Shown piece by piece: positions 24,238-64,000 of a DNA stretch of 64,000 bases. A program made the position numbers and the translations under genes. This DNA comes from a virus, in IMG/VR virus record IMGVR_UViG_3300047551_002099, positions 1-64,000 of that record, one strand, 5' to 3'. The stretch's first letter is position 1. The number at the start of each line of letters is the position of its first letter. The notes beneath the pieces were generated by a model. The model saw only the letters and a list, made by a program, of their open reading frames with translations. It searched no databases and had not been told where the DNA came from.

Positions 24238-24999
24238 ATGGAATTTATCACTAGAGCCGCGGTAAACAACGCGATTTTAGACCCTCTTCAAGGTTTTGAC
24301 TGTGATGTCTACGTTCAAGACCAAGCCACTGGTAAACAGCTTATTATCGGGCGCTTCACCAGTTTTCAGTTCACGGTTCGTAATGCCACTGAGCCCTACA
24401 TGGAGTTCAACCAACGAGTAGCCCGTTTACTTGACGGTGAGTTCCAGTTTGGTTGGGTGCTAGAGCGCGGTTTAATTGACACCCGCTTTCTAGAAGATAC
24501 CTTTGGTATAATGTCCTTGTCCCGTGAGCAGCGGATTTCCCGTAGCCCCCGCTTCCAGATTACGGTTGAACTGAACGCCCCTGAACTGGCCAATCCTATT
24601 GATGGTAAAGCAACAGAAGGCGCTCAAGAGTTAATGGGCGGTGAAATTGTTGTTAACAACCGTGTGACCCGCGCTGCCACTGGTAAATATCGTCTGGTTT
24701 ATGCCAAGACTGATTCTTTTACCTTCGGCGCTATGGCTGGTCGGAATGTAATCGCTACCCGCTGGGAAGGTCTCTGTGAAGGGATTTACTACAGCAATCA
24801 AGCCGATATCTGGCCTGGTCAAACCCTTGGTAAAGGCGTTAGTGTTAACAGCAACTCGCCGACGAGTAAGACTATTCTTACTGGCCGGTCGCTGTCTGAT
24901 ACGCCTGGTAGTGCCAAAGGCCCTGAGTGGGATATTTGGGGATCTCAACTGGGCGAAGCAGCCTTACCTGACGGTGGCTCCAACGGTATTCCCGAATAA
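24238..24999 (+). CDS. Tail tube protein
   Basis: This 253-aa protein is the likely inner tube subunit. It follows the sheath gene, has the usual tube length plus a C-terminal extension, and contains a beta-rich core. FDCDVYVQDQATGKQLIIGR and FTSFQFTVRNATEPYMEFNQR are followed by FQFGWVLERGLIDTRFLED, which fits the first sheet and long helix of T4 gp19-like tube proteins. The last about 55 residues are Gly/Ser/Pro-rich and probably surface-exposed. The ribosome site GGAG is eight bases ahead of the ATG. Sheath-tube gene adjacency is the strongest support, since the sequence signature alone is weak. Confidence 0.75.
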   Translation: MEFITRAAVNNAILDPLQGFDCDVYVQDQATGKQLIIGRFTSFQFTVRNATEPYMEFNQRVARLLDGEFQFGWVLERGLIDTRFLEDTFGIMSLSREQRISRSPRFQITVELNAPELANPIDGKATEGAQELMGGEIVVNNRVTRAATGKYRLVYAKTDSFTFGAMAGRNVIATRWEGLCEGIYYSNQADIWPGQTLGKGVSVNSNSPTSKTILTGRSLSDTPGSAKGPEWDIWGSQLGEAALPDGGSNGIPE

Positions 25000-41700: not shown

Positions 41701-41739
41701 AGTAACGAATGGCTATTGGCTGGAGACCTTAAAGCATAG
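38728..41739 (+). CDS. Collagen-like tail fibre with repeated beta domains
   Basis: This 1,003-aa protein contains several Gly-X-Y blocks (for example [16 protein letters not shown] and repeated GIQGIQG), which fold as a collagen-type triple helix and show it is a trimeric fibre. Between blocks are four copies of a short about 45-aa unit ([60 protein letters not shown] and [20 protein letters not shown], each followed by TGDV or SGDL). Three copies of an about 120-aa beta domain follow ([36 protein letters not shown] and the more diverged [18 protein letters not shown]). The C-terminal about 75 residues look like a fibre tip. It precedes a lectin-like protein. A host-recognition fibre is likely. 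Confidence 0.85.
39340..39380 (+). repeat. 9-bp tandem repeat in collagen-like fibre
   Basis: CAAGGTAT(T/C) recurs about four and a half times in tandem, encoding Gly-Ile-Gln triplets. Such short repeats can expand or contract by slippage. Confidence 0.9.
39592..39632 (+). repeat. Second 9-bp tandem repeat in collagen-like fibre
   Basis: CA(A/G)GGTATA recurs about four and a half times, again encoding Gly-Ile-Gln. The third codon position differs from the array at 39340 (ATA instead of ATT/ATC), so the two arrays expanded independently. Confidence 0.9.
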
Positions 41740-45302: not shown

Positions 45303-45962
45303 ATGCCTGAGTCTAACCCCTACAGTCCGATTCTGCCACCACCCCAACCTAGTATCTGGCCCGCTACGTCCGAGGCTCAAATTCTGCAGACGGTAGAAAC
45401 CCGGCTGACCTACACGCCTATTGTGGTTCAGTTCTTATCCCCAATTCTGAACGAAGACAGCTCCCCTTACACAGATAAACAAGGTAAGAAACGTTACGCT
45501 CTTCGGATTAGCTGTCCACCCAGCAACCGTCCCGGTGAGTGGCAGTACATCCCTGATAGTTATTACTATGAAATCCCTGACGATGGATTGCTACGGCTGC
45601 AGCTAGTCCCTTCTGACCGTTACTTGCCGATTGGACGTTATGTTGTAGAGTACTTCCGCATTGGTAAGAAGTTACCTGTCTTAACGCAGCGTTGGGTTGT
45701 TCCTAAACCCCCACCAATGGGAACCTATTCTTTCACTTATGAACTCCAACCTCCAATTCTTCCCGTAGATGTTTGGAAGGTTACCAGTGTTTCAGCAGGT
45801 TATGAATGGGTAAGTAACTACAACTCACTGACTTGGGGCACCCCGCCGGCGCTAGGTGATGTAGTTAACGTTCGCTACCAACGCGCGGTCACCCTTGATA
45901 AGTTAATTGACTATAGTTTGAATAACACTAATATTAAAGAAACTGACCGAGTTCGATATTAA
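45303..45962 (+). CDS. Structural-region protein, function unknown
   Basis: This 219-aa protein sits between the terminase and the giant ORF. A Pro/Ser/Thr-rich leader (residues 1-35) is followed by beta-rich segments (PVVQ-type strands, YALRISCPPSNRPGEWQYIP, YLPIGRYVVEYFRIGKKLP) and a C-terminal domain around VTSVSAGYEWVSNYNSL. No family was recognised. A palindrome stands where a Shine-Dalgarno sequence would lie. It may be a virion component. Confidence 0.6.
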   Translation: MPESNPYSPILPPPQPSIWPATSEAQILQTVETRLTYTPIVVQFLSPILNEDSSPYTDKQGKKRYALRISCPPSNRPGEWQYIPDSYYYEIPDDGLLRLQLVPSDRYLPIGRYVVEYFRIGKKLPVLTQRWVVPKPPPMGTYSFTYELQPPILPVDVWKVTSVSAGYEWVSNYNSLTWGTPPALGDVVNVRYQRAVTLDKLIDYSLNNTNIKETDRVRY

Positions 45963-45967: not shown

Positions 45968-48900
45968 ATGATTCAGTACGAAACCAGCGTTGACGGTCGT
46001 CTTAAGTTTACACTCAACGACCAATATAGGGAGATAGCCCGTCAAGAGTCTGGTGGGAATATGTCGCTGCGGGGCACAACCAATAGGGAACAGAGTCCCT
46101 ATGGTGTGGTCGCTTATAAGCACGACACCCGTAAGTATAGTGATTTCGTACAGGGATTAGAAAATCTGGATGTAATTCAGTTTGCTGCACCGTTTAACAA
46201 CGTCCAGAAAAGTTTGTCTTCCCAGCCGAATATAGCTACCAACATACTTGAAAGTGCTTACGAAAACATTGGGTTAGTTCAGCGGATGTTCCCATCGGAA
46301 GTTGGGATGTTAATGCGTACAGGGAAGCTCAAGTCGTTGTTGCACGACCAAACCTACTTTAAAAGTACGGTGCAGCAACCCATTGGTTTTTACGACCAGC
46401 AGGAAACCGTTATAAAGAACCAATACCAAGCGTCCCGACACCAGAATAAAGATGGGTCTAACCCGTTGATTATTGGACATGACCCTTTAGAGCTGCAGCA
46501 CGCCAAAAGTACGGAAGGGTTATATTCTAAAGAGCGTTATCAGCAGATTAAAGAAGAGTTTGCGGCTAAAGGTTTAAAAGAGCCTGTTCCTACTGGTAAA
46601 GCGCAATTCACTGGCGCGATGTTTACAGACTTAGCTGTTGGTGGGCTGTCTTTGAGTGGTTCCGGTGGGGTTCTTGGTCAGTATGAAGACTACTCCATTG
46701 GGTTTGAAAACCCAACAATTGTTGATTGGATTAGCGAATTTAGAAAGACTGGTCTTGAGAAGGAATATTTTGTACGTGAATCAGAAGCCGCCCGCGGGGT
46801 TAAGGTCACTGGTAACTTGTCTATTTATGAAGAGCGCAACAAGCAACTTCGAGACGTTGCCGAAATTCTTAAAATCGTAGACCCCAAAGGTGAAAAGGGT
46901 CTAGCCCAAATAACCGTTGGTAGTCCTTCAATGGACTGGAACGAGTTTGCCAGAGACTCTAGTTCTAAGGATGCCCGTCAGAAACAAAGCGTAGGCACAT
47001 TTATTAAGTTGCTGCAAGAAACCGCTAAGTACGGCTCCAAGAACGTTTTGATTATGGACCCCAGCCGGATTAACATCCCGGAGAATGAACAGCGCCGGCT
47101 AAAACGAAGTACATACATCGGAAAGTCCATTCGGGGTAAAGCGCAGCATAGCAACACGATGGGTATTACAATGCGGCCCATCACAGGTTTAACCCCAGAG
47201 CAAACAAAACTACTTGAAGCCAAAGGGCTGTTGGAGAAAGCGAAGACCGGCGTCCATACGTTGAACGTAGGTAACGCCCGACCAACAGGTAACTACTCCA
47301 TTAACCAGGAGATAATTATTGACATGAACAAAGCGGACGCTGCTACCCGCGCGGGCGCAGCTTTCATTGAAGCAAACATAGCCGCTAGTCATGTCGCGTT
47401 CTTACCCCGCCGGGATATCGCTAAAGAAGGAATTGCAGGCTCGATGCTGCAGCAGTTCTATATGCCCACTTTTAAAGACTCTCAAAAGAGTGGTTTTACC
47501 CAAGAGGGCCTGTTACCGAACATGCCCTTATCTATGCCCCAGTCGTTCTTCCGATACTTCAAACCAGGGACTAGAACTCATATCTATAGCGACCGGTATC
47601 GAGCGCTAACTGGAAAGTATGCTACAGGGCTCCAAGGGGATGTGCTACGGGAGTTAGACGCTAAGTTAAGCGACCCTGGGCCTGGAAATCAGATTAACTA
47701 CTTCCTGCGGCAGCGTGACTTATACGAGCCAGGCAAAGGCATAATCGGGACAGCTGCTGCCACGGTTGGTCGGTTTATTGATACAGCTACTGGTTTTTAT
47801 ACCATGCAGGCCATCAAGGCGCGGGAGTCTGGTCAGTTAGGGGGTTCGTTAAGAGAGCTATACGAAAAACGCCAGTACGACCCTTACGACCAAACAGAAA
47901 ACCGTGGGTTCTTTGAAAACTTATTGACTAAGACAGCTGGGACGTTATCTGCCACGACGACGGCTATGGCGGCTTACTTTGGGGTAACCCATGCTTACAC
48001 CATGGCGCGGGCTCAGATCGAGCAGGTCGGTGTGGATTATGTACTGGAGTCTATTGCTAGAGGGCACACAGAAGGAGTCAAGAGTTTATTTATTACCCAA
48101 TTACTAGACCCATCGCACCAGGAATTAATCCTAGGCGCTAGCACTATTTATAACGCCGATATTCCCCACCTGACGGTGCGTAATACCGGTACAGCTATGG
48201 AAGCTTACTTCAATTTAACTGTTAACCGAAGCTTACAAGCATTACAACATACACAATATGCAGGAATAATCACTGACGAGATGATTGAAGCTGTAGCTTC
48301 TAGTGACACCTTCGGTGACTTTGTCATAACTGATAGTAATGTCACTCGGCTCAACAGCCAAATTATGGGGGATTCTTTTGAAGCGGTTATGGACCCCACC
48401 AGCAATAAGCGGACGATGGCAGCAGTGGTGACTCGTAAGTTGAGTCAGAAACTGGCTGCTTTACCGGAGGGTGCGGTTATTAGCGAAAGTACTATCACGC
48501 CTTTGATTGATGACATCTATAAAGAGATGGGTATCGACCGGCAGTCTGGTTTGATTGATTTGGGGCGGGGTACAGATAGCCTTGACATTAAACGGGGAAC
48601 TCAACCCGCTGGCTTTAGTAATCTAGCTGGTGTGCGCCGAATGGACTCTAGCAACCTGCAGCACATGTTTCTGCCCTTGCTAGATGACATGGTCTTTGAC
48701 AAGGGTGCTAAGAAATATCAATCAGCCAAACAGAACTTACTACGGCTGGCTCAGTCAACCCCTGCGTTGACTTATAAGAATACTGCCAATAACATCGCCG
48801 CGGCGTCCGACCTTCGTATTTATAACTATGGTTATGAGCGGATGCGTCAGCTGGCGGAAGTCTTTGACGAGTTAGCAACCCACCTACCTGCTAATCCGCT

Positions 48901-51900
48901 GATGTGGATTAAACCCATCCGGGAAGTGTTTGCTGGGTCTCCAACCACTGGTGCAACGACTGAGCAGACAATCGAGCACGGAGCTATTACAACGACTCGA
49001 GCTTCTTTTAAAGATTTGATTGGCCCTGGCTTTACCGGCTTAATTAATATCCAAGGTGAAATCGTCCGGGAAGTTGGTCGTTCAATGAAGGTTGGATTGA
49101 CGCAACAGCTGAAAGATAAGTTTGAGCTTCTTCAGACCAGCCGTGCGGTTGAGCGAAGTGAGGCCGATTTAGTTAAGCAGGTCGCCCGGCACGGAGACGT
49201 TGAAAGCTTTATTAATACTATTTGGGGTAATGACGTTGGGGATTCTATGTTCCTAGGTCATGTTAACCGTCAAAGACGTTATAACCAACTGCTGCGAAAC
49301 CAACGTAAGGACTACGACGAACTACTTAACGCTGATACAGCTAACCCAGCCTTTAGCGGTCTCCGCAAAGCGCTTCTAGGAGTCGGTACGGTCATGATTG
49401 TTGACCGGCTGTTTGACGCGTATGTTCTCCGCCCGCAGGGTGTTGATTACTTTGATTCAGTCATGTCTGATGTTATTGGTAGTCGCAGTCCTAAAGCTGG
49501 AAGCGAAGAAGATGCTAAGTGGCAGTCGTTATATGACACAGAATACAGTAATGCGATACCGAGTATTATTAAGTATCCCGCGGCGGCGGCTGGTTTTTTT
49601 GTTGGTGGTCATTTATTACCCAGCTACGAAGCCACCGATAGCTTGGTCTATGAAGCAGTTAGTAAAAAGTATGGAGTTGCCGCGGTTAACACGCTTATGT
49701 CAGAAGCTGCTGGCGCTGCGTCGGATGATGTAGCAGATGCGCTCAGACTTTCTCCGAAGGTTATTAGAAGTAAGTTCGGTACAGCAGGGGCTTTGCTGGG
49801 TGCATCGGCGGCGTTGATTGGCTCCCAGTTAGCAGTTAACTACCTATCCGCTATCAGTAAGCCAGTCATCCGGGGATTAGATAATCTTTTCGGCGGGCGG
49901 TGGCGTGAAGAAGAATCCGGTCTAGATGTTGACCCAGTTAAAGGAACTGCAGCGTCTGCCTTAGCAAATATCGTGCAGTATAGCGTCCAACGTCAGAGCG
50001 TTAACTATCAGAAAGGTTGGGGTGCCACAGCCGAAGATAAGACTGATGTTTATCTGTTAAACCTAGCGGCGCAAGGCTTGATGCAGTCGCGGTCAAAGCC
50101 AACGCAGATGTTCTACCCATTTGCAACGCAGATTGCATCACCATTCTTCCAGTTTGCGACGGTCGCAAAGGTTGACCCTGGAAAGAACATTATTCAACTT
50201 AACACGGGTTTCCAACTGTTCCCTTTGTTGGGAGCCGGCTTAATGCTACCGTCTCCAATTACGCCGAAGGTTCAATACACCGCTCCTTTAAGTAACCGAG
50301 CGATTGCTAACTATCTGAAGAACTACCCAGAGGGTATTATTATGCCGGGCCAGCCCAGTACCATGGCCCAACATCAAGAGACCGAAGCTTTTGTCAATAT
50401 GCAAGAGCTTAGTAAAACAGGCTCGATGCTTTTGGGTGGGGGTGTTAACCTATCCTTTGACGGCAAGCCTTTGGTATATATGGCGATGCTCGGCGCTGCT
50501 AGTGAGTTTGCTAAGAGCGGGGTAGACCGATTCTTAGCTTATAAAGCAGAAGAGCAGAAATGGTTATACGAAAAACGACAGCCCCTATACCGGGAATTAC
50601 AGAATTACGAGACGTTATTTCACGCGGGCAGAGTTGGTCTGGATACCTTAGATAGAGTGTCCCGGGCTGCCTACTCTCTGTCAGTGATTATGCCTAACTA
50701 CCTAGCTAAAGCGGGCTCAGCATTCTTAGGGGCGTCCGGTGGTACGATGCACCAGCTCGGCCCGTTTGCCCGGAAAGCCGCGCCCTTTGCTTTAGCATTT
50801 GGTCTGCTAGGTGCTTCTTTCCGTCTTAATGATAAGGCTATGGAGTCAGAGCTACCTAATTACAGTCGTCTGCAAACTATGTTTAAGCAGAAGCAGTACG
50901 AAGGGCTGACCCATGAAATGATTAAAGCAGACGCTATTAATATCGGTCAGGTCTTCGTCGGAACTGGTTTATTAGGAACGACTATTCTATCGACGGGGGC
51001 CTTTGAGTCAGCGCGTAGTTTTGGTAACGCTTACAACATTGTTGAAGCAGGCGGGCCATCGACTTACATTCAGCGGCAGAAACACAAACTCTACAGCATG
51101 TGGTTGGAGCACCTTCAAAATCAAGGCGAAGTGTTAATGCCTAGCTTAGAAGGACAAACAGTAACGTCGTTAAGTAAACGCTCTGTCGCAACAGCAGAAC
51201 AAGCATTAGGGGTTTACGGAGAGATTAATCAAGCAGTGGGTAGAGCTGGGCAGATGCAGCGCCGGCACTTAATGAAAGCTGCTAGTCAAATAGACTTACC
51301 TTTAATCAGAACTGCTCCGACCCGTTTGGCTATGGCTGCTCGCCGGGTAGCGCCGGTAATGGTAGGGGCATTAGCCGTCGCTCAGGTACTAGCGACAACA
51401 GAAGGTTTTAAAGATTCACCTTGGTTATCCTTACTGAAGAACTTTACCAGTACCGGTTCTAGCGAGTATTCCAGTGAGCAGCGGGCGATGCTGACTAAAC
51501 TTGGCATCAACCAACCCCGTTACCAGCCGAAAAACCTGGGAGACGCGTTTAACAACGTTAGGGATTATGTTGTTAGCTCAGCTTTGTTACCTTTTGGCGG
51601 GAATACTTTTGGGGTTTACCAAGACAATCCTAACCCCTTTAGTCCCATTATCGGGCCGTTGGGATTGTCCTTAGGTTCAGAAGATGAAGCGCGGGTTTAT
51701 AGTCAATCTCAATCTGTAGCAGCTGATATTAGCGGCTCTTTATATTTAATGCCGGCGATGACTAATGAGTTGGCTAACGCCATGAACCTTGGCCCGCTGC
51801 TTAGCTACGCGAAGAAATTAGAGAAGCGACCCGGCGCGGCTAGCTTAGCTAAAGCTTTAATCCGGGGTGCTGGTTTACGAACAAAGGCTGCTAAGTTTAA

Positions 51901-54900
51901 AGGCGGACCCAGCCAAAGTGACATGCAAGCGGTGTCCAGCCCAGAGCTGCAAATGGCATTAACCAGACGTTATGACCGTCTGCGGAACTTGTCTTGGCAG
52001 ACTTCCGGTGAGTTAATGATGGATGTAATCGGTGAGTTCCAGCGGTCAGGACGGATTATTAGTGATTACCGAGATGGACGAATTGACGGAACGCCTCTGA
52101 ACAAAACGACGGCAGCCGACACTATGATCTACGATACGTTAGGAAAAATGCGTATCGTTCCGATTGGGTCTGACGGGTCGTTCCGTCTACCGAAGAAGAC
52201 AACAGAGCGGGACTTGCTGAAGTTTATCAGGACAATGACCGCGCAAGGAGCTGGCTTTGGTGAAGGTGTTCGTCTAGAAGCATCGGAAGACCCAGCGGAT
52301 ATCATGTACGGACGTAGTCAAGACCGGGGCGGTATTCCTGTTCTAAGTTACTTTGGTGGATTGTTCAACTACGCTTTCAATAGTTTTTACGATAAAGACA
52401 CTGACCTTTTAACTCCTGATTCTAGTAATATTGTCGGCGCTACGTTAATGGCTGGTTCCGCGCTAGTGTTGGGCGCATCGTTTATTGGAACTTCAGTTTC
52501 AACCGTGATTCAATTGGCTGGGTCTTTAGCCGCGTTGTCAGAGTACGGCACTATTAGCGATGCTAAGACTAGCGTTAGAGACTTACGGATGTCCGTGGTC
52601 AAGAAGCTTAAACAAAGCTCCTTTGCGTTGAGCAGTGGGGGAGGGCCAGCTATCATTCGCCCGCGGGCACATGGGTATAGCCGGGTGTTAACTCCAGCCC
52701 ATGATATTGCTGAAGAAACGCTTGAGCAAATTAACCTTAAGTTTACGGGTAATACAGCGTTCAATAGATACACCAGTGGTAACGCGCTGGAAACAATCGT
52801 CACTGAAGAGTTTGGTAATGTCTCCCGTAAGTTAGCCAACCAGTACTCTACTGTAGAGTCCCTAAGCGACTTTATTGTTCAAGAAGTAGACGTTCTGAAC
52901 GCCCAACTGGGCGACCAACTTAACGTCGTTGTGGGTGGTGAATCGAAGAGCATCGCTAGCATCTTCACTCCAGGCAGTGAAGCAATCCAAGGAATTGACT
53001 CAAAAGCCTTGACAGAAATAAACCAGATTTTGGTTAGCGGTAAACATAAACAAACTCAGGCCCTGGAAATCGAACGTGTGTTATTAAACTCGTTCCACCG
53101 TAACTTGGGTTTAATTACCGCTGAAGGACAGTTTGTTAACGATGGTAAGCTTCCTGCGCACCAGCAGAGTGCTAAGACTCAGTACGCAAAAGAAGCAGCT
53201 AAACAAGCGGTTGAGCAACAAGCTGCTGCTTTGACTGGCGAAGTAACCCCGACTTATGACCCGTCGATAGGCTTCCTACGCTCGAAGATTCAAGAAAAAG
53301 GTTATAGCGGTTTGATAGCGGAAGGAACCGGCGGGGCTTTACGGGCAGCCGGTGAGTTAATCAACCTTAAAGCGTATTACGAAGTTCTATCCTATACAGC
53401 AGCAATGGGAACGACTGACCAGTTTGAGCGGCGCCGGGCGAGTCAAGCGGCGGCACAAAACACCGTTCAAGCCTTTGGTTTGATTATCCCCATGCAGTAT
53501 GCGTTAGGTGCTGTCCGAAGACATCCGGCTATTGCAATGACTGTTGCCTTAGGCGCAGCGGTTGCCGGTGGGGTTGCGTTACAGAACAAAGGGTTCCGCC
53601 GCTTCTTGGAAAAAACTACTCGCCCGGTTTTCTCTTTCTTAGATACTTACGCTTATAAACCAGCGGTACAAGGTTTAGCTGGTATGTACGAAGGGCTTGC
53701 TAAGTTTACTCCGCTACCCCAACTACTTCGTCCAGTTACGGCTATATTTGACCCTATCTTCAGCGGTATGCGGCGGGCTGTGCAAGACGACCCGGCGCTA
53801 AGTATGCTGGCTAACTTCTTTGTACCAGAAGGGGTAGAAGACTTTTACCGCCGTAACGCGCTTTTAAAGACTCGGATGACGCCTTGGGGTGACTCCTACG
53901 AGATGTACTCTAAGGCAGAGGTAGGCCAGTACCGAGCAGCGCGGTTAACAGCTAAGCGTAGACGGGCTCGTACCGCTCAAGCTGGAATTGATGAAGACTT
54001 ACTCCATCCGTTTTTAATGGGGCGGTCGGCGGATGTCCAATCCATTTCGTTGTTTGAAGAGCGGTACCTAGGCGGCGACGGGCGGATTATGGAGCAATTC
54101 CAAACGGAGCGCTTAACCAGCAATTTAATGATGATGGCTATCCGCCGCCGTCAGGGCCTGGTTGACCAACATGTTGGAGGTAGTTACATGCGTCAGCCTT
54201 ACTATAAAGAGAATGTTCACCATCACTTCGCTACGGTTGCTGCTTTAGGAACATACAGCTACGCCCAGACGGGTGACGTCTTCTCCGCACCGGTTAACCA
54301 GGCAACGCGTGGACTAGAAAAATTGTATAACCTACATGCTGAAATAATGAATCGGTTAGGCCCAGAGGCCGGGCCTATTATTAAACGCACGCTAGCCGGG
54401 GCTGCCCTTGGTTACTTAGCCGGGGCCCAGTTTAGTCATTTTGGTGAGACGGAAGATGAACGCCGGCGTAACGCTGCCATCGGTGGACTTGCTGGTAGCG
54501 CTATTGGTGGCAGTACCACGTTATTCCTAGGCCCCCACTTTGCCGCGCGAACGGAGTATATACTAAGCCGACTAGGGCGTAATCCTTTCTTTAGAGGTAT
54601 TGCTGGAAAAGCTGTGGCTTTTGGTAGTGCGGTCGGTAACGTAGCTAAAGCAACCTTCAAAGGTTTAGGGGCTTTTGCTAACAAATCTTTCCCTTACGCT
54701 AGTTTCTGGGGGTTATCTACAGCTGCGACTTACAGCAATTATGACGCTGCTGTAAATTGGGTGGATGGCGAAGACCCCGCGAAGAAACATCCTTTATATA
54801 ATCCTTGGGTTAAGTTAGGTATCTCGACTGGGGTTGGAGCGGTGGTAACTTTAGCTGGTTACGGCGCTGCTGGAAGTCAGTTTACTTCAGGGGCCTTAGC

Positions 54901-57900
54901 GGCTGGTATTGGTAAATCAGCAGCCGCTTTGGGCACAGCCGGAGGGTACGGAGCTAACTGGTTGTTGTCTTCGTTCTTAATCAACTTTATGTTGAGCAAC
55001 CCTTATACTGGGGCGGCCCCCAGAGCGTTGGCTAAAACGATTTATGACCGTTTTGGTTTAGGTAGAGATGAAGACTTTGGGAACTTCTATAACACCGGTG
55101 TTCTAACTTCAGCCGCGGTAGTTGGTAGTGTAACTCCTTGGCTATCCCAGAAAACCCACGAAGATTATATAACTAGACTGCAAAGACAGCTGGGTTATAC
55201 AGACGTTGACGCTGACGGTCGGGCTCAAAGAGCAGTTGCTGAATTGGATGAACTAAAACGAGTACTTGCTGCGGTAGAAGGAACCAGCGGTGCTGTGGTT
55301 GCAGCCAGCCCAGAAAGTAAACTACAGCAGTTAGGTATAGCTCCACTGGTTGGCCCTTATAACCACGAATACGTTGATGAGGTAATTCAACAAGGTATTG
55401 CTGAGAAGCGTGGTCGGATGTCTTTAGTGGAATCGCTTATCGATGCTCAAGTCCAGCGGGGCTTCTTACATAACACTTTGCGTAGCACTAAAGGTATTCT
55501 TAAAGCAACAGGGCATATCGGAACGTTGGGTTTTGGTTACGTTCTGAAAGGTTTAGCAAAGACTCGTAGGAACTTGGGTCTTGGATTTACAATAATGGGC
55601 GCCGGTACAGCTGGTGGCTATCTATTCAGCCAGCTTACTGCTAATGATACTGATAGCGGGGCTCAATTAGAAACAACAGTTAGTACTTTAGGTGGGACTT
55701 ATATTGCAGCAGGATTATACGGAGCCTTTGGTCGCCACCCAGACCAAGTAGACGTGGCAGGAACTCAAGTTATTCAGAGGTTAACCAACTGGTATACTCA
55801 GAAGTTCGGCGCAGGGCCTGATGCACCAAGATACCAACCGTTTAGAGCGGCATGGCGAAGCTTACCTAGAAAGTTCCGTCGCAATACGAGGTATAACTTT
55901 AATCGTGGGTGGACTTGGCTCAAAGAGCGATTCAGAGACCCCCGGAGCAGCGAAGCTTTCCCTGATGGGTTTACCTTTGGTCGGTCTAACTTTGGACAGC
56001 AGTTTATGCAACTCAAGGATAAGGCCCTGCCCGTTGCTGCGTTTTCGATTGACGTGCTTAACCTCTACACCAGCACAAGCCAGATTAATAACCTAAAATA
56101 TGCTCGCTCCCAAGCCGATTTTATGAAGGCCTATAGCAGCTACAGCTCGGTGGTTGCTACGACAACGTTTACATCGTTAATGTCACTCTTTGCACGGAAC
56201 GCGTCGTTTAGTTCGTTTGCGATGTCAACTTTACAGATGTCCCAAATAAGCTACGCCGCTGGTATGCGTCGTTCGGATTACGAGTACGCTAATGCGGTGG
56301 ACGACCCCACAGCATTCCAAGCAGATAAGCAGAAAGACTTTCTTATGGCCGGGGGAGTCGCCGGATTGTCTTTAGTATCCGCTGCAACTAGTTACGCTAG
56401 AGCCGGTAATCAACTACCTTTCCAGAGTAGAATTGCGGCGACGTTGGGTAGACGGGTACCGTTTGTTTTACAAGGGGGAAGCAAGTTTGCTGCAATTGCT
56501 GACTTTGCCGCGCTACCAGTGGCTCAGACAGCTGTGACCGGTTACGAAATCCAGCGGATTGCTAGCGACCGCAATCAGAAGTTTGGTTATAGTACGAACG
56601 TCGCAACAGACGCCGCACGAAATCAAGTTGACCTTTGGGCAGCGTTTCTGTTTTCTGTGAGCGCAATGGCTTTGTCTCGTCGACCAACTACTAACTCGGG
56701 GTTATGGTTTGGTAAGGTCATTCCTGGTCTTACCACTGGGGGTGTCGCCTTAGCTAAAGACGCCTTTGTACCCAGGCTTCAATACAAACTTACGGAACGA
56801 TTCAGAGAAGCGGGGATTACCAATACCTATGCTCAAAACGTAATTACGCGTAAAGCAGCCAAGAGCGCCAGTGATAACTACTGGCTGACGCTAGGGTTAA
56901 GCACTGCTGCCGCAGGTGCAATCTTTGTTCTAAGCAGAGGCCGGGCTAGCAAGCCAATGCTACTTTCGTTGCCGGCTGTAACAACAAGCGGTGTTGCATT
57001 GTATAACTACGAAAGCACCTTAAGTTCAGAAATAGAAAAGCGTAAAGCTGCTGGTTTGGGTGGGCTTACTAAAGACGATATGGTTGCCTATCGGGAATGG
57101 CAACAATCCGGTGCTATTATCCCTGAAGCGTGGAAAGACAGTAATCAGTATCGTAACTGGATGATCCACCGTAAAGACCAACAGCGCCGTTGGGATAACT
57201 TTTCAGCAAACTTCTTCAAATCGAACCGGTCGTTCGAGGGTCTGGGTACACAGCGGATTCAGAATGATTGGATGATTTCAAAAGATGTGTTGCGGGCTAA
57301 CGCTGAAAAAATGCACTCCAAAGCCTTAGGTAAGTATGAGTCTAACCCTTGGGCTACTGGTAGCGCTGTTGCCGGTGGTGGGGTGTTACTTGGGATGATG
57401 CTCCGCGCCCAACCCCATAGAATGGATGGTTTGGCTGTTGGGGAGAGCTTCTTAGATAAGAAGCATATTGGAAAGTTAGCTAAGTTCGGTATAGGGGAGT
57501 TAATACTACCAGCGGTAGCAGTAGCACGTAAACTTTCTACGGATGCTGAAATTAGAAAATTAGCGACTCGGTCGCTGTCACCAGATGTCGATGGGGAGAT
57601 TCAATTCGCCCGGGCGTCAGCGGATATTTCTAGAATGCGGGACGTTGTTTGGCAGGAAACCTTACTGGCACAGATGCCCCTTGGCGGCCAGAGCTTGTTA
57701 GGGCGGGTAACCCGACACGCTGTTGCACATGGTATTGGCAAGGTTATCTTTGACTTTAATCTCAACCCAATGCTCTTGGACTTAGAGCAGAAGGAAATGT
57801 TGAAGTACGTTAGAGAGTCAAGAGATAAAAATCTACTAACAACAGAAAGAATGCAGCGGGCATTGAAGGCTCAAGCAAACACTAATGCTGGCACTATCCC

Positions 57901-60900
57901 GGCGTTGGGCCTAACAGCACTACAAATGATCGCTACAGGACGAACCAACCCGATGCTACTGATAACTGGGTTTAAAGATTCTGTGCTCACCTACGTTGGT
58001 GTTAAAACAGCTTTACAGTCTGCCATTGGTAAGAAGCGCGCGGTGAATGTTTTACTCAACAAAGGCAATACTGTTACAGGTGCTGTACCTGATCCGACAG
58101 GAGCGTCTAACATTCGCGCTGCTGGTGTTAGTAAAGAAGACGAAGAAAGTAATATCGTCAGTGACTACTTTACTAACCAGTTTATGCTGACTACAGCCCT
58201 GCCCAGACTGGTGCCGACGTTGGTTGGAGCAGGGTTGTCGATGTGGCTTAACCGGCGGGCTTGGAAACATATGAAGGGTGCTACAGCAAAAGAGGCTCCT
58301 AAAGTTGAAGTTGTAGAACCTACTCAGTTACCCGTAGAGCCTGAAATTGTAACGCCTAAACCCCCGGGTGGAACAGCTAGCAAAACGATAACTACGACTG
58401 TACATGGTGAGCCTGGTGTCACTGTTGGGCCTAGTGAACCATTAAAACCCGTTAGTACTGAAGCAGTAGTCGAGCCTGTGAAACCGGTTCAACCTACGCC
58501 TCCAGCGCCCACCGCCAGTCCTAAACCACCGCAAATAACACCTACGGTTGAGCCAGTCGTTTCTGCTGAGCCGCCGCCGGTCGCTAGCAGACAGGTTATT
58601 AGTAAAGTAAATCCTGACGTAATTACGTCTTCGGGTGAATCTGGTTCGGTTGGCTTGGAAGAGCAAACACAAAATCTTTTGAACCAATTGAGGCAACAAG
58701 ACTCTAACCCTACTGGAATTAATAAATCTAAAGCTGCTCTTAACACAATTAATAACACACCGGTAGAGACAAGACAAACTGTGGCTCAAGTGACTATACA
58801 ACGAAGCGTCCACAGCACCGAAATGGATTCTTTCATATTAGACACGCCTGACCAAACTAAAATAGAAAAGCTTGTCAATCAAATGCGGCAAGTGCAGACG
58901 GCGTTTAATTCCCTTTCTGGACAGCTAGAACCAGTTATAAGACAAAAGACTGGAAAAGATGCTGCTCAAGGAGTCATAGATGTTTGGCAAAAACGAATTG
59001 ACCAGCTCGTTGAAAAAATTAGCGCTAGCACTACCAATTATGACGCGCTTACTACATATTCCCGCTTCTTAATTGAACTAGAAGGGTCGTTCTTTATGGA
59101 AGGCAACGACCATTTTTCACCTTTACATCAAGGTAAAATTGGTGGGCCTGTCAGTGGTTTTGGTCAGGCGAATCTAGCTTTACTTCAATCCGCCTTAAAG
59201 GCTCCGTTTGTTCAATCTCAACAACTTGCTTTTGACTTATACGGCTTATCCCCAACGCAAGACTTTACCCCCGGCATGCCTATGCCAAATGATACTATGG
59301 GGCTATGGGTATTTGGTTATGTGGAAGGTTCTGGAGTTGATGGGTCAGGCAAACGTGATGGGGGCGTTCGTTGGAATAGCGAAGCTGGAACGAGCAGTAA
59401 TTTTGTTACCTTATTAAATAGAGGGTATCATATCAACTTGTATCCAATTATTCCCGCCGAAGTTGTGACGACTAAGCCAATATCAGCACCTGATATTAAG
59501 CCCGCTCGGCCAGGGCAAAGTCGTAGGCTAAAGCGTAATTATATCTCTCCGCGAGGAGTCAAGATTAATAAATATAGAGACCCTGACTCTTTTAGACAGC
59601 AACAAGCTTCAGAGGCACAATCTTTAAGCTCGGAGAAATTACAGGCCAATCGTTTAAACAGCGCATCGAGTGGTAGTGTTAATGCTAACTCTATTAATAA
59701 GACCTATTTAGAAACATATAAAGAGTCAAAACGGCAGGCCCTTTCAACTGCTAAAACATTTGTTTCTACTTTAAGCAACAACGAGCTTACTGATTTCATT
59801 GAAGATATGAAGTCTTCAGTTGAAGAACTTCGGTCTAAGGGACTTAGCAACCTCAGCTCTGACGAAGTAAACACCTATGGTCTATATAGCGGTAATCTTC
59901 AGGCTGCTCAACTAGACCAGCGACGACGTCAACAATTGAAGCCAAAGTCTCAAGCTGTTGAAATATTTAAGCATATTAGAAATAGTGTTACACAGGATGC
60001 TTTTAATTATGTAATCACTCTAAACGACAGTGATTTGGATTCTTTTATTGACGAGACTCAAGCTAAAGTGTCTCAGCTGCAGCAAAAAGGCTTTAATGCC
60101 TTTACGTTAGAAGAAGCAGCAGACTACGGTATGGAGGTTGGTAGGTTGCGTGTGGCTAAAGCTGCAAAAACTCATAGGTCTTTGGAAGACAATACTAGTT
60201 CTACTAAGTCAAGCAGTAAGCAAGTTATTAACAAAGTAACTAATCCTGAACCAACGCCTGCCCCTACTGTAACCACGCCGCCAGCCCCTGAGCCTATAGG
60301 GCCTGGTAAAATTGAAACTGTTGCTTCAGCACCGGAGATTACACCTAAGCCTTTAGAACAACCTACTCCGCCAATGTTGATGGATATGGTCTACGGCAAG
60401 GCTAAAGAAAGCGTCACGGGCGTCATCAGCAAAGCTAAGGAGATTGGGCAACCCTTCGTGTCTAAAGTGGGTCAAGTCGCCCGGGGTACCGCCAACCAGG
60501 CTTGGGACGGCTGGACTATTTTCGACCGCTTAGAAGGTGTAGACGCCCGCTTTGGTAACCAAGGTATCGGCGGTGGTGCCGGTTTTTGGACTCGCTTTGG
60601 TCAAAGCGCTAAGTATGAACTCAGCGGTAGAGGGATTGTTGAAGGTGGTTTCGGGATTGGTCGGAACGCTCAAACTGGCAAGGTTGGTATCCAAGGCAAA
60701 GGCGGCGCGATGGCAGTGGCTGGGATGGGGCTACAACTAGCCGACGACATCTTAACCTTAGACTGGAGCCGCAAGAACTTTGCGAAGTCGTTAGGTACGG
60801 TAGCGAAGAACCAAGCGACGTCCTTGGCGGCTGGGGTGGCCTTCGGGTTGGCTACTGCTGGTCTGGGGGCCTTAGCGCTGTCTTCTGTCCCGGCGTTAGC

Positions 60901-63900
60901 GGCTTTAGGAGTTGTCGGTAGCGCTGCATTAATGGGTTACGGAATCTACTCGCTAGCTGACCAAGGCTTCAAGGTTGGGGGTAAAGCCTGGGAGAAATTC
61001 GTCCTGAAGCGGAAGCGGACGGTAGAAGAACAGAAAGCCTATGAGCAACAAAGCCAAGTGTTATCAATGGGCTTTGGCGTTGGGACTTTTGTCTATGCTG
61101 GCTACAACCAAATTAAGAGTCTTCAGGGGGCTCGTCAAGCGGCTAGCGTAGTCAACCAAGCACCGGTCGTTCCGACTGTTCCCGTTCGCCAGGCAGTAGA
61201 TGTAATAGATGATGTCGCTCCGAGAGCCCCCGTCAGCCCGGCTAGAAGTGGGGCAGTGCTAAAGACCGCTGTACCGGCTGCGGTAGCCACCCCTAAACCG
61301 AATATGCTTGGAGCCACTGGCAAGAGCTTTGCGCGTAATCTAAACCCTCGAAGCTTAGTTAAGAACCCTCTAGCTTGGCTGACTGTCGCAGAAGCCGGTA
61401 TAGGGGCGGTAGATGATATGTACGTTAAGAAGAAGTCTTGGCAAAAGACGTTAGTCAACCGGGGCGGACAGCTAGCCTTCGGTTTGTTAGCTTCTGCGGC
61501 AGTAGGGACAGCAATGGGGGCTCTGGTCGCCCTCGGTGTAATTACAATGCCGGCATGGTTAACTACCGCGTTAGTTATCGGTGGGTTAGCCGCAACAGCT
61601 TGGGCAGTCGCTCCTCAGGTGGCTAGTATCTACGGCAAGGTTAAAGAAGACTTCTCGAGTCAGCTAGAGGATAGTAAGACTATCGCTAGCAGAATGGACC
61701 TTAATTCTAGAGAGCAAGCTTCGGCTCGTATCTCTAGTAGCGTAGCGCTCCGGTCGGATGCGACGACCTCTATTAAAGTAAACGCCCGCGCTAGCAGAGA
61801 TTTTGTTGGGTACGGCGATCGCCGAGGTGCTAATAAAGAGTTAGACTTACTTGGCTCGCCAGTAGCTGAATTTTCCCCTATTCCACACGTTCCGCTGCCC
61901 TCCTCACAGCAAGTTATTAATCAGGTTAATAAACCTAATAGAACTACACCTGCTGTAGTCCCAATTAAACCACGCAGCCAGCAAAATATAACTTTTATAC
62001 ATAAAGAGTCTATCTCTGACTCTGACGTACAAGGTTATCTTGTCGGCAAAACGGTAACTAGGGATTTCGATAATATTACTTATGACAACTCCGGATTTAA
62101 TACTGCTTTGTACGAGGGCGCTCGCTACAGAAAAGGTTCTATTTCTGGTGCCGTTTATTTAGGTCCATTAGGAGTCAACAGTAGTAATGCTAAAGGAGAG
62201 GGTTTTGCTAGGTATTACGATAAAGATTCTAAGTATCAGTTTGAGGTTGATACTAAAACCAATAAGATATTTAAGATATTCCCTTCTGGCTCGAAGAAAA
62301 CATTATCTTTACCTACTGGGGTGGAGTTTATACAGACTACGGAACCTGGTGTTACTAATACAAGAAGAATTATAGAAGAGATAAATAATAGCAACCGGCG
62401 TGTTGTCGGCATTATCGGACATGGATTTTTAACGACAGGCTATTCAACCTACCGGCAGAAGGATGGTTCTTATAAAGAGGCTCGTATTGGTAAAGAGGAA
62501 GCTTTACGTATGAGTGGTGTTTACGTTGACGCTAAAGGTGTGACAAATATAGTTCACGGGTTAACAGAAGAGAAGCTGGCTCAGCTTAAAAGAGATAAAG
62601 TCAAGTCGGTAAGTTTATTCGGTATAAAGCCTGTAGAGAGCGGTAAACATAGGTATAACCGAGCGTTCCTGGTAACTAGTAAAAAAGGTGAAGTCCAATA
62701 CGTTTACTTACCGCAAGAAGTTAGACACGAAGATACCCGGAAATACATTAAAAAACAAGTTCCTAACTACAAGGATATTGTTCAGTTTGATGGTGATACC
62801 TTTGCTGGCTATAGTTTAACTGATCCTAAGACAGGTAAGGCAGTACCAGAATCTAGGGGTAAAGTTCCTTATATGTGGGCTCAACCTATATTTCTTACAG
62901 TTCCAGATTCTTCTGTCCGTAAGAAAGATAGTTCTTCTAAGGACAACTCTTTAATAAGAGAAGCCGCTGCTAATAGAATAGGAGAGCTTAAGTCAGAGAT
63001 GACGGAAGAAAAGCTAATACAAAAAGGTTACACAGGCACTAAATTAGAGGCGGTTAAAGTGCTTCAGGGGTTGGATTCAGACCTCGCCGCGGGTATTGCT
63101 TATCTTTACGGTGACGTGGCTAGAGTCAATAAAGCTGATTTACTTAACCCAGATATTCTAAATGAGGCTTTAGGTAAGCCGTTAGCCTCTATGTTTTCTA
63201 GGGGGGCACAAAAAGTCTGGACGAGTGGAAAAGAATGGCTTTCCGGTGTAGGTCAATCTCTAACTAACTCTTTAACAAGGGCACCTATTATCGGAGACCT
63301 ATTCTTTACACCCGCTGCTAAAGCTGGAGAAATCCCTTACGACTTAATGAGCCAGCGCCAACGTCAAGAGGCAGTTGACAAGGAAGTCAAGCGGCGTTCT
63401 GCTGGCAGTCAATATAACCTGAAAGCTATCCAAGGTAAAGAACAGAAAGTTGCTAAGCAGATAGAACGCCCGCGGGCTTGGTGGCGGTCGGAGGACGAAG
63501 AAGTACCGTGGTGGCAGAAACTCTTTAATTTAGCCGCCGGGGCTGTCAGTGTGACTATCAGTGGTATCGGTAGTCTTTTAAAAAGAACTTGGAACTTCCT
63601 TTACAAAACTGGGGCTTCTATCAGTCAAGGTCTTTCCCAAGCTTTGGGAGGGGTTGCCGGTGAGGTAATGGGCCCTGCTGGGATGATAATGCCAGTTATG
63701 AGTGCTTACCAACCTAACCTTACGCCTGAGTTTAGAGAAGCCATTAACAAGACAGCGGCAAATATCGGCATACCGGCTGAGTGGTTAATTGGTATTATGG
63801 CTTTTGAAACTGATGGTACGTTTAATCCAGCTGAGCCCAACAAGATGGGTAGTGGCGCGACCGGACTAATTCAGTTTACGCCTGCAACGGCACGTAATAT

Positions 63901-64000
63901 GTTCGGTAAATCGACAGCGGAGATGGCTAAGATGAGCCAAATTGAGCAGTTAAAGTATGTAGAAAAGTACTTTAAAGCTCAAGTCGGTAAGAAAAAGTTA
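45968..64000 (+). CDS. Giant tail protein with lytic transglycosylase-like domain (partial, runs off right edge)
   Basis: The frame from the ATG at 45968 (MIQYETSVDGRLKF) stays open to the last base: 6,011 codons with no stop. Residues 1-600 are globular and unrecognised. From about 650 to 4,070, Ala/Gly-rich hydrophobic segments recur (for example AAAAGFFVGGHLLP, GALLGASAALIGSQL, IVGATLMAGSALVLGASF, VALGAAVAGGVAL) between charged helices, as in tape measure proteins. Pro-rich linkers lie near 4,110-4,215, 4,750-4,800 and 5,290-5,335. Each holds the motif SxQVIxxV. Helical repeats and more hydrophobic helices lie between them. Near the edge PAEWLIGIMAFET (E5947 as likely catalytic acid) followed by GSGATGLIQFTPATA matches lysozyme-like transglycosylase domains of phage tails. 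Tape measure or multifunctional injected protein are the main options. Full length is unknown. Confidence 0.88.
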   Translation, partial: MIQYETSVDGRLKFTLNDQYREIARQESGGNMSLRGTTNREQSPYGVVAYKHDTRKYSDFVQGLENLDVIQFAAPFNNVQKSLSSQPNIATNILESAYENIGLVQRMFPSEVGMLMRTGKLKSLLHDQTYFKSTVQQPIGFYDQQETVIKNQYQASRHQNKDGSNPLIIGHDPLELQHAKSTEGLYSKERYQQIKEEFAAKGLKEPVPTGKAQFTGAMFTDLAVGGLSLSGSGGVLGQYEDYSIGFENPTIVDWISEFRKTGLEKEYFVRESEAARGVKVTGNLSIYEERNKQLRDVAEILKIVDPKGEKGLAQITVGSPSMDWNEFARDSSSKDARQKQSVGTFIKLLQETAKYGSKNVLIMDPSRINIPENEQRRLKRSTYIGKSIRGKAQHSNTMGITMRPITGLTPEQTKLLEAKGLLEKAKTGVHTLNVGNARPTGNYSINQEIIIDMNKADAATRAGAAFIEANIAASHVAFLPRRDIAKEGIAGSMLQQFYMPTFKDSQKSGFTQEGLLPNMPLSMPQSFFRYFKPGTRTHIYSDRYRALTGKYATGLQGDVLRELDAKLSDPGPGNQINYFLRQRDLYEPGKGIIGTAAATVGRFIDTATGFYTMQAIKARESGQLGGSLRELYEKRQYDPYDQTENRGFFENLLTKTAGTLSATTTAMAAYFGVTHAYTMARAQIEQVGVDYVLESIARGHTEGVKSLFITQLLDPSHQELILGASTIYNADIPHLTVRNTGTAMEAYFNLTVNRSLQALQHTQYAGIITDEMIEAVASSDTFGDFVITDSNVTRLNSQIMGDSFEAVMDPTSNKRTMAAVVTRKLSQKLAALPEGAVISESTITPLIDDIYKEMGIDRQSGLIDLGRGTDSLDIKRGTQPAGFSNLAGVRRMDSSNLQHMFLPLLDDMVFDKGAKKYQSAKQNLLRLAQSTPALTYKNTANNIAAASDLRIYNYGYERMRQLAEVFDELATHLPANPLMWIKPIREVFAGSPTTGATTEQTIEHGAITTTRASFKDLIGPGFTGLINIQGEIVREVGRSMKVGLTQQLKDKFELLQTSRAVERSEADLVKQVARHGDVESFINTIWGNDVGDSMFLGHVNRQRRYNQLLRNQRKDYDELLNADTANPAFSGLRKALLGVGTVMIVDRLFDAYVLRPQGVDYFDSVMSDVIGSRSPKAGSEEDAKWQSLYDTEYSNAIPSIIKYPAAAAGFFVGGHLLPSYEATDSLVYEAVSKKYGVAAVNTLMSEAAGAASDDVADALRLSPKVIRSKFGTAGALLGASAALIGSQLAVNYLSAISKPVIRGLDNLFGGRWREEESGLDVDPVKGTAASALANIVQYSVQRQSVNYQKGWGATAEDKTDVYLLNLAAQGLMQSRSKPTQMFYPFATQIASPFFQFATVAKVDPGKNIIQLNTGFQLFPLLGAGLMLPSPITPKVQYTAPLSNRAIANYLKNYPEGIIMPGQPSTMAQHQETEAFVNMQELSKTGSMLLGGGVNLSFDGKPLVYMAMLGAASEFAKSGVDRFLAYKAEEQKWLYEKRQPLYRELQNYETLFHAGRVGLDTLDRVSRAAYSLSVIMPNYLAKAGSAFLGASGGTMHQLGPFARKAAPFALAFGLLGASFRLNDKAMESELPNYSRLQTMFKQKQYEGLTHEMIKADAINIGQVFVGTGLLGTTILSTGAFESARSFGNAYNIVEAGGPSTYIQRQKHKLYSMWLEHLQNQGEVLMPSLEGQTVTSLSKRSVATAEQALGVYGEINQAVGRAGQMQRRHLMKAASQIDLPLIRTAPTRLAMAARRVAPVMVGALAVAQVLATTEGFKDSPWLSLLKNFTSTGSSEYSSEQRAMLTKLGINQPRYQPKNLGDAFNNVRDYVVSSALLPFGGNTFGVYQDNPNPFSPIIGPLGLSLGSEDEARVYSQSQSVAADISGSLYLMPAMTNELANAMNLGPLLSYAKKLEKRPGAASLAKALIRGAGLRTKAAKFKGGPSQSDMQAVSSPELQMALTRRYDRLRNLSWQTSGELMMDVIGEFQRSGRIISDYRDGRIDGTPLNKTTAADTMIYDTLGKMRIVPIGSDGSFRLPKKTTERDLLKFIRTMTAQGAGFGEGVRLEASEDPADIMYGRSQDRGGIPVLSYFGGLFNYAFNSFYDKDTDLLTPDSSNIVGATLMAGSALVLGASFIGTSVSTVIQLAGSLAALSEYGTISDAKTSVRDLRMSVVKKLKQSSFALSSGGGPAIIRPRAHGYSRVLTPAHDIAEETLEQINLKFTGNTAFNRYTSGNALETIVTEEFGNVSRKLANQYSTVESLSDFIVQEVDVLNAQLGDQLNVVVGGESKSIASIFTPGSEAIQGIDSKALTEINQILVSGKHKQTQALEIERVLLNSFHRNLGLITAEGQFVNDGKLPAHQQSAKTQYAKEAAKQAVEQQAAALTGEVTPTYDPSIGFLRSKIQEKGYSGLIAEGTGGALRAAGELINLKAYYEVLSYTAAMGTTDQFERRRASQAAAQNTVQAFGLIIPMQYALGAVRRHPAIAMTVALGAAVAGGVALQNKGFRRFLEKTTRPVFSFLDTYAYKPAVQGLAGMYEGLAKFTPLPQLLRPVTAIFDPIFSGMRRAVQDDPALSMLANFFVPEGVEDFYRRNALLKTRMTPWGDSYEMYSKAEVGQYRAARLTAKRRRARTAQAGIDEDLLHPFLMGRSADVQSISLFEERYLGGDGRIMEQFQTERLTSNLMMMAIRRRQGLVDQHVGGSYMRQPYYKENVHHHFATVAALGTYSYAQTGDVFSAPVNQATRGLEKLYNLHAEIMNRLGPEAGPIIKRTLAGAALGYLAGAQFSHFGETEDERRRNAAIGGLAGSAIGGSTTLFLGPHFAARTEYILSRLGRNPFFRGIAGKAVAFGSAVGNVAKATFKGLGAFANKSFPYASFWGLSTAATYSNYDAAVNWVDGEDPAKKHPLYNPWVKLGISTGVGAVVTLAGYGAAGSQFTSGALAAGIGKSAAALGTAGGYGANWLLSSFLINFMLSNPYTGAAPRALAKTIYDRFGLGRDEDFGNFYNTGVLTSAAVVGSVTPWLSQKTHEDYITRLQRQLGYTDVDADGRAQRAVAELDELKRVLAAVEGTSGAVVAASPESKLQQLGIAPLVGPYNHEYVDEVIQQGIAEKRGRMSLVESLIDAQVQRGFLHNTLRSTKGILKATGHIGTLGFGYVLKGLAKTRRNLGLGFTIMGAGTAGGYLFSQLTANDTDSGAQLETTVSTLGGTYIAAGLYGAFGRHPDQVDVAGTQVIQRLTNWYTQKFGAGPDAPRYQPFRAAWRSLPRKFRRNTRYNFNRGWTWLKERFRDPRSSEAFPDGFTFGRSNFGQQFMQLKDKALPVAAFSIDVLNLYTSTSQINNLKYARSQADFMKAYSSYSSVVATTTFTSLMSLFARNASFSSFAMSTLQMSQISYAAGMRRSDYEYANAVDDPTAFQADKQKDFLMAGGVAGLSLVSAATSYARAGNQLPFQSRIAATLGRRVPFVLQGGSKFAAIADFAALPVAQTAVTGYEIQRIASDRNQKFGYSTNVATDAARNQVDLWAAFLFSVSAMALSRRPTTNSGLWFGKVIPGLTTGGVALAKDAFVPRLQYKLTERFREAGITNTYAQNVITRKAAKSASDNYWLTLGLSTAAAGAIFVLSRGRASKPMLLSLPAVTTSGVALYNYESTLSSEIEKRKAAGLGGLTKDDMVAYREWQQSGAIIPEAWKDSNQYRNWMIHRKDQQRRWDNFSANFFKSNRSFEGLGTQRIQNDWMISKDVLRANAEKMHSKALGKYESNPWATGSAVAGGGVLLGMMLRAQPHRMDGLAVGESFLDKKHIGKLAKFGIGELILPAVAVARKLSTDAEIRKLATRSLSPDVDGEIQFARASADISRMRDVVWQETLLAQMPLGGQSLLGRVTRHAVAHGIGKVIFDFNLNPMLLDLEQKEMLKYVRESRDKNLLTTERMQRALKAQANTNAGTIPALGLTALQMIATGRTNPMLLITGFKDSVLTYVGVKTALQSAIGKKRAVNVLLNKGNTVTGAVPDPTGASNIRAAGVSKEDEESNIVSDYFTNQFMLTTALPRLVPTLVGAGLSMWLNRRAWKHMKGATAKEAPKVEVVEPTQLPVEPEIVTPKPPGGTASKTITTTVHGEPGVTVGPSEPLKPVSTEAVVEPVKPVQPTPPAPTASPKPPQITPTVEPVVSAEPPPVASRQVISKVNPDVITSSGESGSVGLEEQTQNLLNQLRQQDSNPTGINKSKAALNTINNTPVETRQTVAQVTIQRSVHSTEMDSFILDTPDQTKIEKLVNQMRQVQTAFNSLSGQLEPVIRQKTGKDAAQGVIDVWQKRIDQLVEKISASTTNYDALTTYSRFLIELEGSFFMEGNDHFSPLHQGKIGGPVSGFGQANLALLQSALKAPFVQSQQLAFDLYGLSPTQDFTPGMPMPNDTMGLWVFGYVEGSGVDGSGKRDGGVRWNSEAGTSSNFVTLLNRGYHINLYPIIPAEVVTTKPISAPDIKPARPGQSRRLKRNYISPRGVKINKYRDPDSFRQQQASEAQSLSSEKLQANRLNSASSGSVNANSINKTYLETYKESKRQALSTAKTFVSTLSNNELTDFIEDMKSSVEELRSKGLSNLSSDEVNTYGLYSGNLQAAQLDQRRRQQLKPKSQAVEIFKHIRNSVTQDAFNYVITLNDSDLDSFIDETQAKVSQLQQKGFNAFTLEEAADYGMEVGRLRVAKAAKTHRSLEDNTSSTKSSSKQVINKVTNPEPTPAPTVTTPPAPEPIGPGKIETVASAPEITPKPLEQPTPPMLMDMVYGKAKESVTGVISKAKEIGQPFVSKVGQVARGTANQAWDGWTIFDRLEGVDARFGNQGIGGGAGFWTRFGQSAKYELSGRGIVEGGFGIGRNAQTGKVGIQGKGGAMAVAGMGLQLADDILTLDWSRKNFAKSLGTVAKNQATSLAAGVAFGLATAGLGALALSSVPALAALGVVGSAALMGYGIYSLADQGFKVGGKAWEKFVLKRKRTVEEQKAYEQQSQVLSMGFGVGTFVYAGYNQIKSLQGARQAASVVNQAPVVPTVPVRQAVDVIDDVAPRAPVSPARSGAVLKTAVPAAVATPKPNMLGATGKSFARNLNPRSLVKNPLAWLTVAEAGIGAVDDMYVKKKSWQKTLVNRGGQLAFGLLASAAVGTAMGALVALGVITMPAWLTTALVIGGLAATAWAVAPQVASIYGKVKEDFSSQLEDSKTIASRMDLNSREQASARISSSVALRSDATTSIKVNARASRDFVGYGDRRGANKELDLLGSPVAEFSPIPHVPLPSSQQVINQVNKPNRTTPAVVPIKPRSQQNITFIHKESISDSDVQGYLVGKTVTRDFDNITYDNSGFNTALYEGARYRKGSISGAVYLGPLGVNSSNAKGEGFARYYDKDSKYQFEVDTKTNKIFKIFPSGSKKTLSLPTGVEFIQTTEPGVTNTRRIIEEINNSNRRVVGIIGHGFLTTGYSTYRQKDGSYKEARIGKEEALRMSGVYVDAKGVTNIVHGLTEEKLAQLKRDKVKSVSLFGIKPVESGKHRYNRAFLVTSKKGEVQYVYLPQEVRHEDTRKYIKKQVPNYKDIVQFDGDTFAGYSLTDPKTGKAVPESRGKVPYMWAQPIFLTVPDSSVRKKDSSSKDNSLIREAAANRIGELKSEMTEEKLIQKGYTGTKLEAVKVLQGLDSDLAAGIAYLYGDVARVNKADLLNPDILNEALGKPLASMFSRGAQKVWTSGKEWLSGVGQSLTNSLTRAPIIGDLFFTPAAKAGEIPYDLMSQRQRQEAVDKEVKRRSAGSQYNLKAIQGKEQKVAKQIERPRAWWRSEDEEVPWWQKLFNLAAGAVSVTISGIGSLLKRTWNFLYKTGASISQGLSQALGGVAGEVMGPAGMIMPVMSAYQPNLTPEFREAINKTAANIGIPAEWLIGIMAFETDGTFNPAEPNKMGSGATGLIQFTPATARNMFGKSTAEMAKMSQIEQLKYVEKYFKAQVGKKKL

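Follow-up and report, generated by a model that had tools for sequence, protein, structure and literature searches.

Phage tape measures are believed to take part in building an inner-membrane conduit (PMC9022992). In the tape measure of mycobacteriophage TM4 a peptidoglycan hydrolase motif aids the infection of stationary-phase cells, and deletion of this motif shortens the tail predictably (PMC1796659). The tape measure of Thermus phage P74-26, encoded by 15,021 nt (5,006 aa), is annotated with a metallopeptidase domain, and the tail of that phage is nearly 1 micrometre long (PMC10034513). Polyvalent proteins are multi-domain chains; those of phages bear HExxH zincin, lysozyme-like and DD-peptidase domains (Iyer et al. 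2017, PMC5512222). Among cyanophages, Microcystis phage Ma-LMM01 encodes gp120 (PHROG 29513), a very large protein annotated as of unknown function. Its homologue in phage MaMV-DH01 has 2,899 aa and is 98.7% identical to gp120; the contractile tail of MaMV-DH01 is given as 230 nm in the text and 260 nm in the abstract of its description (PMC9927357).

Here, we describe a giant gene that belongs beside gp120. The window analysed, 64,000 bases long, comprises bases 1-64000 of a virus record of 79,810 bases (G000), which is probably a fragment. Comparisons were made with Ma-LMM01, with Microcoleus phage My-WqHQDG and with five contigs (G001-G005), of which G001 (IMGVR_UViG_3300035670_000008; 216,563 bases) is referred to as the sister.

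Phage identity and genomic context

The portal, head protease, major head protein, sheath, tube, baseplate and terminase are 18-41% identical to those of Ma-LMM01 or My-WqHQDG. By this gene content the window phage is a contractile-tailed cyanophage, a distant relative of Fukuivirus and Ma-LMM01, and its relatives suggest a cyanobacterial host. The contractile tail that the sequence-only reading had assumed is thus borne out by sheath, baseplate and tube-like genes (Table 1). The terminases of window phage and sister are 80% identical. The major head protein (window 14711-16003) is 100% identical in amino acid sequence to that of the sister (146999-148291), while the giants of the two, over most of their extent, share 47% identity; this contrast reveals strong genome mosaicism.

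A PRTRC-system-like cluster (record 72219-77056, minus strand; L002:12219-17056) combines a ThiF/E1-like protein (E=2e-17) with weak matches to PRTRC B and A and a small protein that is maybe ubiquitin-like; a ubiquitin-like conjugation set in a phage is a possible reading of it. Just downstream of the giant lies a lipoprotein-like ORF (L002:10390-10938, minus strand) that appears L,D-transpeptidase-like by eye and has no NCBIfam match, and near the record end two ORFs (L002:18528-19744, plus strand) appear HNH endonuclease-like by eye. The sister carries a 4,239-aa ORF (103066-115785, minus strand) with HExxH-like and helicase-like motifs, recognised by eye, that resembles a polyvalent protein.

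Table 1. Features of the giant gene and its surroundings (window positions unless marked as record positions; residues are those of the giant protein).
Feature	Position	Strand	Remarks
Tail sheath, 1,198 aa	20572..24168	+	Contractile tail marker
Probable tail tube protein	24238..24999	+	After sheath; 41% identical to Ma-LMM01 gp092
Collagen-like fibre gene	38728-41739		Separate from the giant
Large terminase	43481..45262	+	33% identical to Ma-LMM01 gp118; synteny marker
219-aa ORF between terminase and giant	45303..45962	+	Position conserved
Giant ORF, first 6,011 of 7,866 codons	45968..64000	+	Runs on to record 69568 (TAA)
Residues 1-520, N-terminal part	45968..47527	+	PLD-like or SNase-like domain here in relatives
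Residues 505-2023, family core	47480..52036	+	hhalign 92.9, 56.7, 41.8 to WOL31340 / gp120
Residues 2024-4214, core expansion	52037..58609	+	Hydrophobic segments; kept in sister, none found elsewhere
Residues 4803-5101, glycine/alanine-rich hydrophobic block	60374..61270	+	93% identical to sister, dS 0.66
Residues 5102-5785, module without sister counterpart	61271..63322	+	
Start of predicted SLT-type transglycosylase/lysozyme domain	63704..64000	+	Residues about 5913-6076, record 63704-64195

A single frame of 7,866 codons

The giant gene starts 5 bases past the end of the preceding gene and is stop-free for the 6,011 codons that fall within the window, a stretch free of N. The window had been read as holding an ORF of at least 6,011 codons, open at its edge; this was true and understated, as extension of the frame beyond the window leads to a TAA at record position 69568 and hence to a protein of 7,866 aa. 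As had been anticipated, this exceeds the P74-26 tape measure (7,866 versus 5,006 aa); no usable ranking of the largest phage proteins was found in the literature, and no size record is claimed. By chance, a gene of this length should contain about 429 stops (log10 P of none = -192); the remaining five frames hold 333-815, and in 20 shuffles the open runs did not go beyond 184 codons.

At the matching place the sister carries a giant of 6,943 aa with no internal stop. Between the two genes, synonymous sites are saturated over codons 1-3,000 (pS ~0.79) while pN is far lower (0.29-0.34), and the same contrast, weaker, extends over codons 3,001-4,214 (pS 0.78, pN 0.47). By these codon comparisons the giant is therefore a real gene, kept in one frame by purifying selection.

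A remote member of the gp120-like family

The order terminase, short ORF, giant is common to the window phage, Ma-LMM01 (gp120), the Microcoleus phage (WOL31340) and their relatives, and the giant is the last late gene on its own strand, the location that marks the family. Gene context was compared in five relatives, in which one or two short ORFs separate the terminase from the giant; the proteins at this position have 2,898 aa in Ma-LMM01, 4,151 aa in the Microcoleus phage, 4,390 aa in G002, 3,564 aa in G005 and 3,209 aa in G004. A further homologue, of 3,591 aa, occurs in G003. Profile comparison (hhalign) of the window and sister giants with six relatives yielded collinear matches with scores of 92.9, 56.7, 41.8 and 38.5, against 31.7 for the best reversed control, which the lowest two exceed only modestly. 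The anchors lie at residues 554-980, 1271-1431, 1886-2023 and 4935-5037; those at 1271-1431 and 4935-5037 are weak, and the latter sits inside the glycine/alanine-rich block. A short direct BLAST match (1e-4) links gp120 785-816 to residues 949-980 of the giant. On these alignments the giant is remotely homologous to gp120 and WOL31340 and a member of a gp120-like family of Fukuivirus-related cyanophages, with which it has in common the position after terminase and short ORF, the collinear core and many hydrophobic segments.

Between the end of one anchor (2023) and the beginning of the next (4935) there are ~2,900 residues in the window protein and ~530 in the Microcoleus protein, and the core of the window giant is, as aligned, expanded by about 2,400 residues. 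Neither this expansion nor a peptidoglycan-enzyme cassette was detected in gp120 or WOL31340. Relatives of residues 1-3,000, and also of the 93%-identical block (residues 4803-5101), were found in viral and genome contigs in the sister only. At the N-terminus, Pfam recognises a PLD-like domain in the Microcoleus phage (E=1e-9), G002 (5e-10) and G003 (3e-20) and an SNase-like domain in G004 (1e-12) and G005 (9e-7), and neither in the window giant or in the gp120-like protein tested. A PLD-like domain in the window giant had been suspected by eye; both Pfam and an hhalign profile were negative, and, in contrast to WOL31340, none is claimed. Over 2,963 residues the Microcoleus and G004 giants share 71% identity, yet one bears the PLD-like and the other the SNase-like module; the N-terminal module is therefore exchangeable.

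Residues 1-5101 of the giant contain 16 hydrophobic segments (mean hydropathy of at least 1.2), compared with 14-30 in its relatives and 14 in the P74-26 tape measure, and a glycine-zipper match lies in the core expansion at residues 2808-2849. No internal repeats were found in the core by profile self-comparison or DNA repeat search. Two core pieces, residues 1-1130 and the conserved anchor, gave mainly helical AlphaFold2 models whose mean pLDDT (37.8 and 40.3) is too low for them to count as evidence of a fold.

A swappable cassette of predicted wall enzymes

The last ~2,700 residues carry predicted enzymes and linkers; past residue 6011 they were read from the record beyond the window. The series opens with the SLT-type domain (PHROG 4928, 196; PDB 9udh, E=1.4e-28; the internal protein of 9k2v, E=1.4e-16), which already gives a match at residues 5925-5983 in the window part of the giant. 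Homologous domains occur in the internal protein of Anabaena phage A-4L (tblastn) and in 9k2v_E ('Internal protein'); at 1,058 aa 9k2v_E is far shorter than the giant, and the SLT domain alone is common to the giant and these proteins. Residues 6109-6206 match the Microcoleus phage M23 gene WOL31307, although this stretch seems short of one HxH histidine and may be inactive. There follow a lysozyme-like match to cyanophage structural proteins (residues about 6300-6512), an RlpA-type domain (6775-6870, E=4e-12) and HExxH motifs at residues 7057 and 7339, whose surroundings are alike by eye. The HExxH region matches SprT-like proteins weakly (E=9e-6), and no relatives of the module were found among phages, plasmids and PDB sequences. 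Proline-rich linkers separate the modules, and residues 7551-7866 contain 12% proline. Judged from domain matches, the cassette would be enzymatically active. That of the sister has M23, VanY, beta-lactamase-like and RlpA domains together with a weak SLT match.

Identity between the two giants changes abruptly from block to block: 47% over residues 1-4214, 93% over 4803-5101, 43% over 5786-6022, 82% over 6544-6951 and 52% over 7551-7866. The modules between these blocks are unrelated. In the 93% and 82% blocks dS is 0.66 and 0.86, respectively, and elsewhere saturated or nearly so; the low values therefore indicate recent exchange. In relatives, matching enzymes have genes of their own close to the tube gene: Ma-LMM01 gp095 matches the M23 domain of the sister at 45%, Microcoleus WOL31305 matches the window SLT domain and WOL31307 residues 6109-6206, and two G002 genes match cassette enzymes, one of them the VanY of the sister. 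Among the tail-module genes scanned in the window, no wall-enzyme Pfam match was found. From these comparisons the C-terminal cassette is swappable and corresponds to separate tail-module genes of relatives, and the simplest account is that entry enzymes may have been relocated from separate genes onto the giant.

Tail length and alternative explanations

The sequence-only reading had considered that the ORF might be a tape measure and, on that condition, derived from its length a tail of ~0.9 micrometre or longer. Read literally, with all 7,866 residues spanning the tail lumen at ~1.5 Angstrom each, the rule gives ~1.2 micrometres (0.9 for the window part). The characterised relative does not obey it: 435 nm is predicted from the 2,899 aa of the MaMV-DH01 homologue, and the tail measures 230-260 nm, so that the literal 1.5 Angstrom rule was rejected as a predictor of tail length. 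It follows that gp120 either is not a tape measure or spans the tube with only a part of its chain. Like the tape measures of TM4 and P74-26, the giant is encoded by a very long late gene and combines hydrophobic segments with wall-degrading domains, the tail is contractile, and gp120 homologues are of near-constant length (about 2,898-2,902 aa) across Ma-LMM01-like contigs. Unlike theirs, its gene lies after the terminase, about 21 kb past the tube gene and not between tube and baseplate genes; its enzymes stand in series in the C-terminal third; and it has no sequence similarity to them and no tape-measure family match in PHROG, Pfam or NCBIfam. Moreover, past a shared anchor motif the Microcoleus and G004 proteins are 2,920 and 2,936 aa long, whereas before it they have 1,231 and 273 aa, and the N-terminal part is therefore hardly a ruler. 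A literal tape measure is thus very improbable. Some part of the core may nevertheless act as one, since among the late tail genes read none of the others looks, by eye, like a tape measure. The alternative offered by the sequence-only reading, that the gene has a function other than setting length, is favoured.

A polyvalent protein, packaged in the capsid, injected with the DNA and acting in the host with the wall enzymes as mere load, is a reading that we regard as unlikely. It would account for the multi-domain chain, the HExxH motifs and lysozyme-like domains of the giant and the DD-peptidase-like (VanY) domain of its sister, and the interchange of PLD-like and SNase-like N-termini in relatives suggests a nuclease. 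Yet no domain of a cytoplasmic effector (ADP-ribosyltransferase, methylase, helicase, RNA polymerase or another kind) was detected in the giant, nor a nuclease domain; most of its recognised domains target peptidoglycan, and its core, of a separate family, has many hydrophobic segments. The proline-rich linkers, and the fact that relatives encode the same enzyme types in stand-alone genes close to the tube gene, could also be expected of a polyprotein or of an external tail part such as a fibre or baseplate appendage, with enzymes acting from outside. We consider this quite unlikely, as the hydrophobic core does not resemble fibre proteins and the phage has a separate collagen-like fibre gene. 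Finally, that several genes were fused by an assembly or sequencing artefact is very unlikely, indeed practically negligible, because the sister gene is intact and collinear over 4,200 codons under purifying selection and because of the stop statistics; ambiguous bases and long homopolymers are absent from the window and the ORF, respectively, and nothing was found in favour of an artefact.

A second giant lies in the window at 2-9217 on the minus strand (at least 3,072 aa, running off the record edge), with a counterpart of 5,112 aa in the sister (126233-141571, minus strand). It is poor in hydrophobic segments and gives a weak match to PLD-like domains near residues 524-597, and its position is that of Ma-LMM01 gp080 (3,562 aa), to which the sister protein has a weak BLAST match. 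This protein, and not the first giant, could serve as tape measure or pilot protein.

A candidate envelope-penetration protein

The explanation that we favour, and hold to be probable, is that the giant is a virion protein for envelope penetration, of the tape-measure, ejection or pilot class. It would be held in the virion, inside the tail tube or reached through it, and upon infection would be ejected ahead of the DNA or with it. The C-terminal cassette, with its SLT, M23-like, lysozyme-like, RlpA-type and two HExxH domains, would then cut the cyanobacterial peptidoglycan, and the core with its ~16 hydrophobic segments would enter or cross the inner membrane and help build a DNA conduit, presumably in this order. 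Synteny, collinear homology and the presence of wall enzymes and hydrophobic segments in one chain point towards such a role in entry. Against it speak the very-low-confidence core models, a helix propensity of the core (1.015) below that of known tape measures (1.07-1.08 for lambda gpH and that of P74-26), the lack of resemblance between the core and any known tape-measure or ejection protein, and the rival candidacy of the second giant.

A wider and more tentative picture is that of a one-chain cell-entry machine, among the largest phage proteins, in which a membrane core and exchangeable wall enzymes are ejected through a contractile tail and whose relatives swap nuclease-type N-termini; its enzyme set would track the chemistry of the host wall.

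Implications

Phages of bloom-forming cyanobacteria conserve this family of giant proteins, which has hitherto been annotated only as hypothetical; an envelope-penetration role would make its function recognisable. The family also cautions that the length of a gene by itself can mislead on the length of a tail. In the window phage and its sister, wall enzymes for which relatives have individual tail genes are joined in a single giant chain and have been swapped between closely related phages, and this makes it possible to test how phage entry adapts to the wall of the host.
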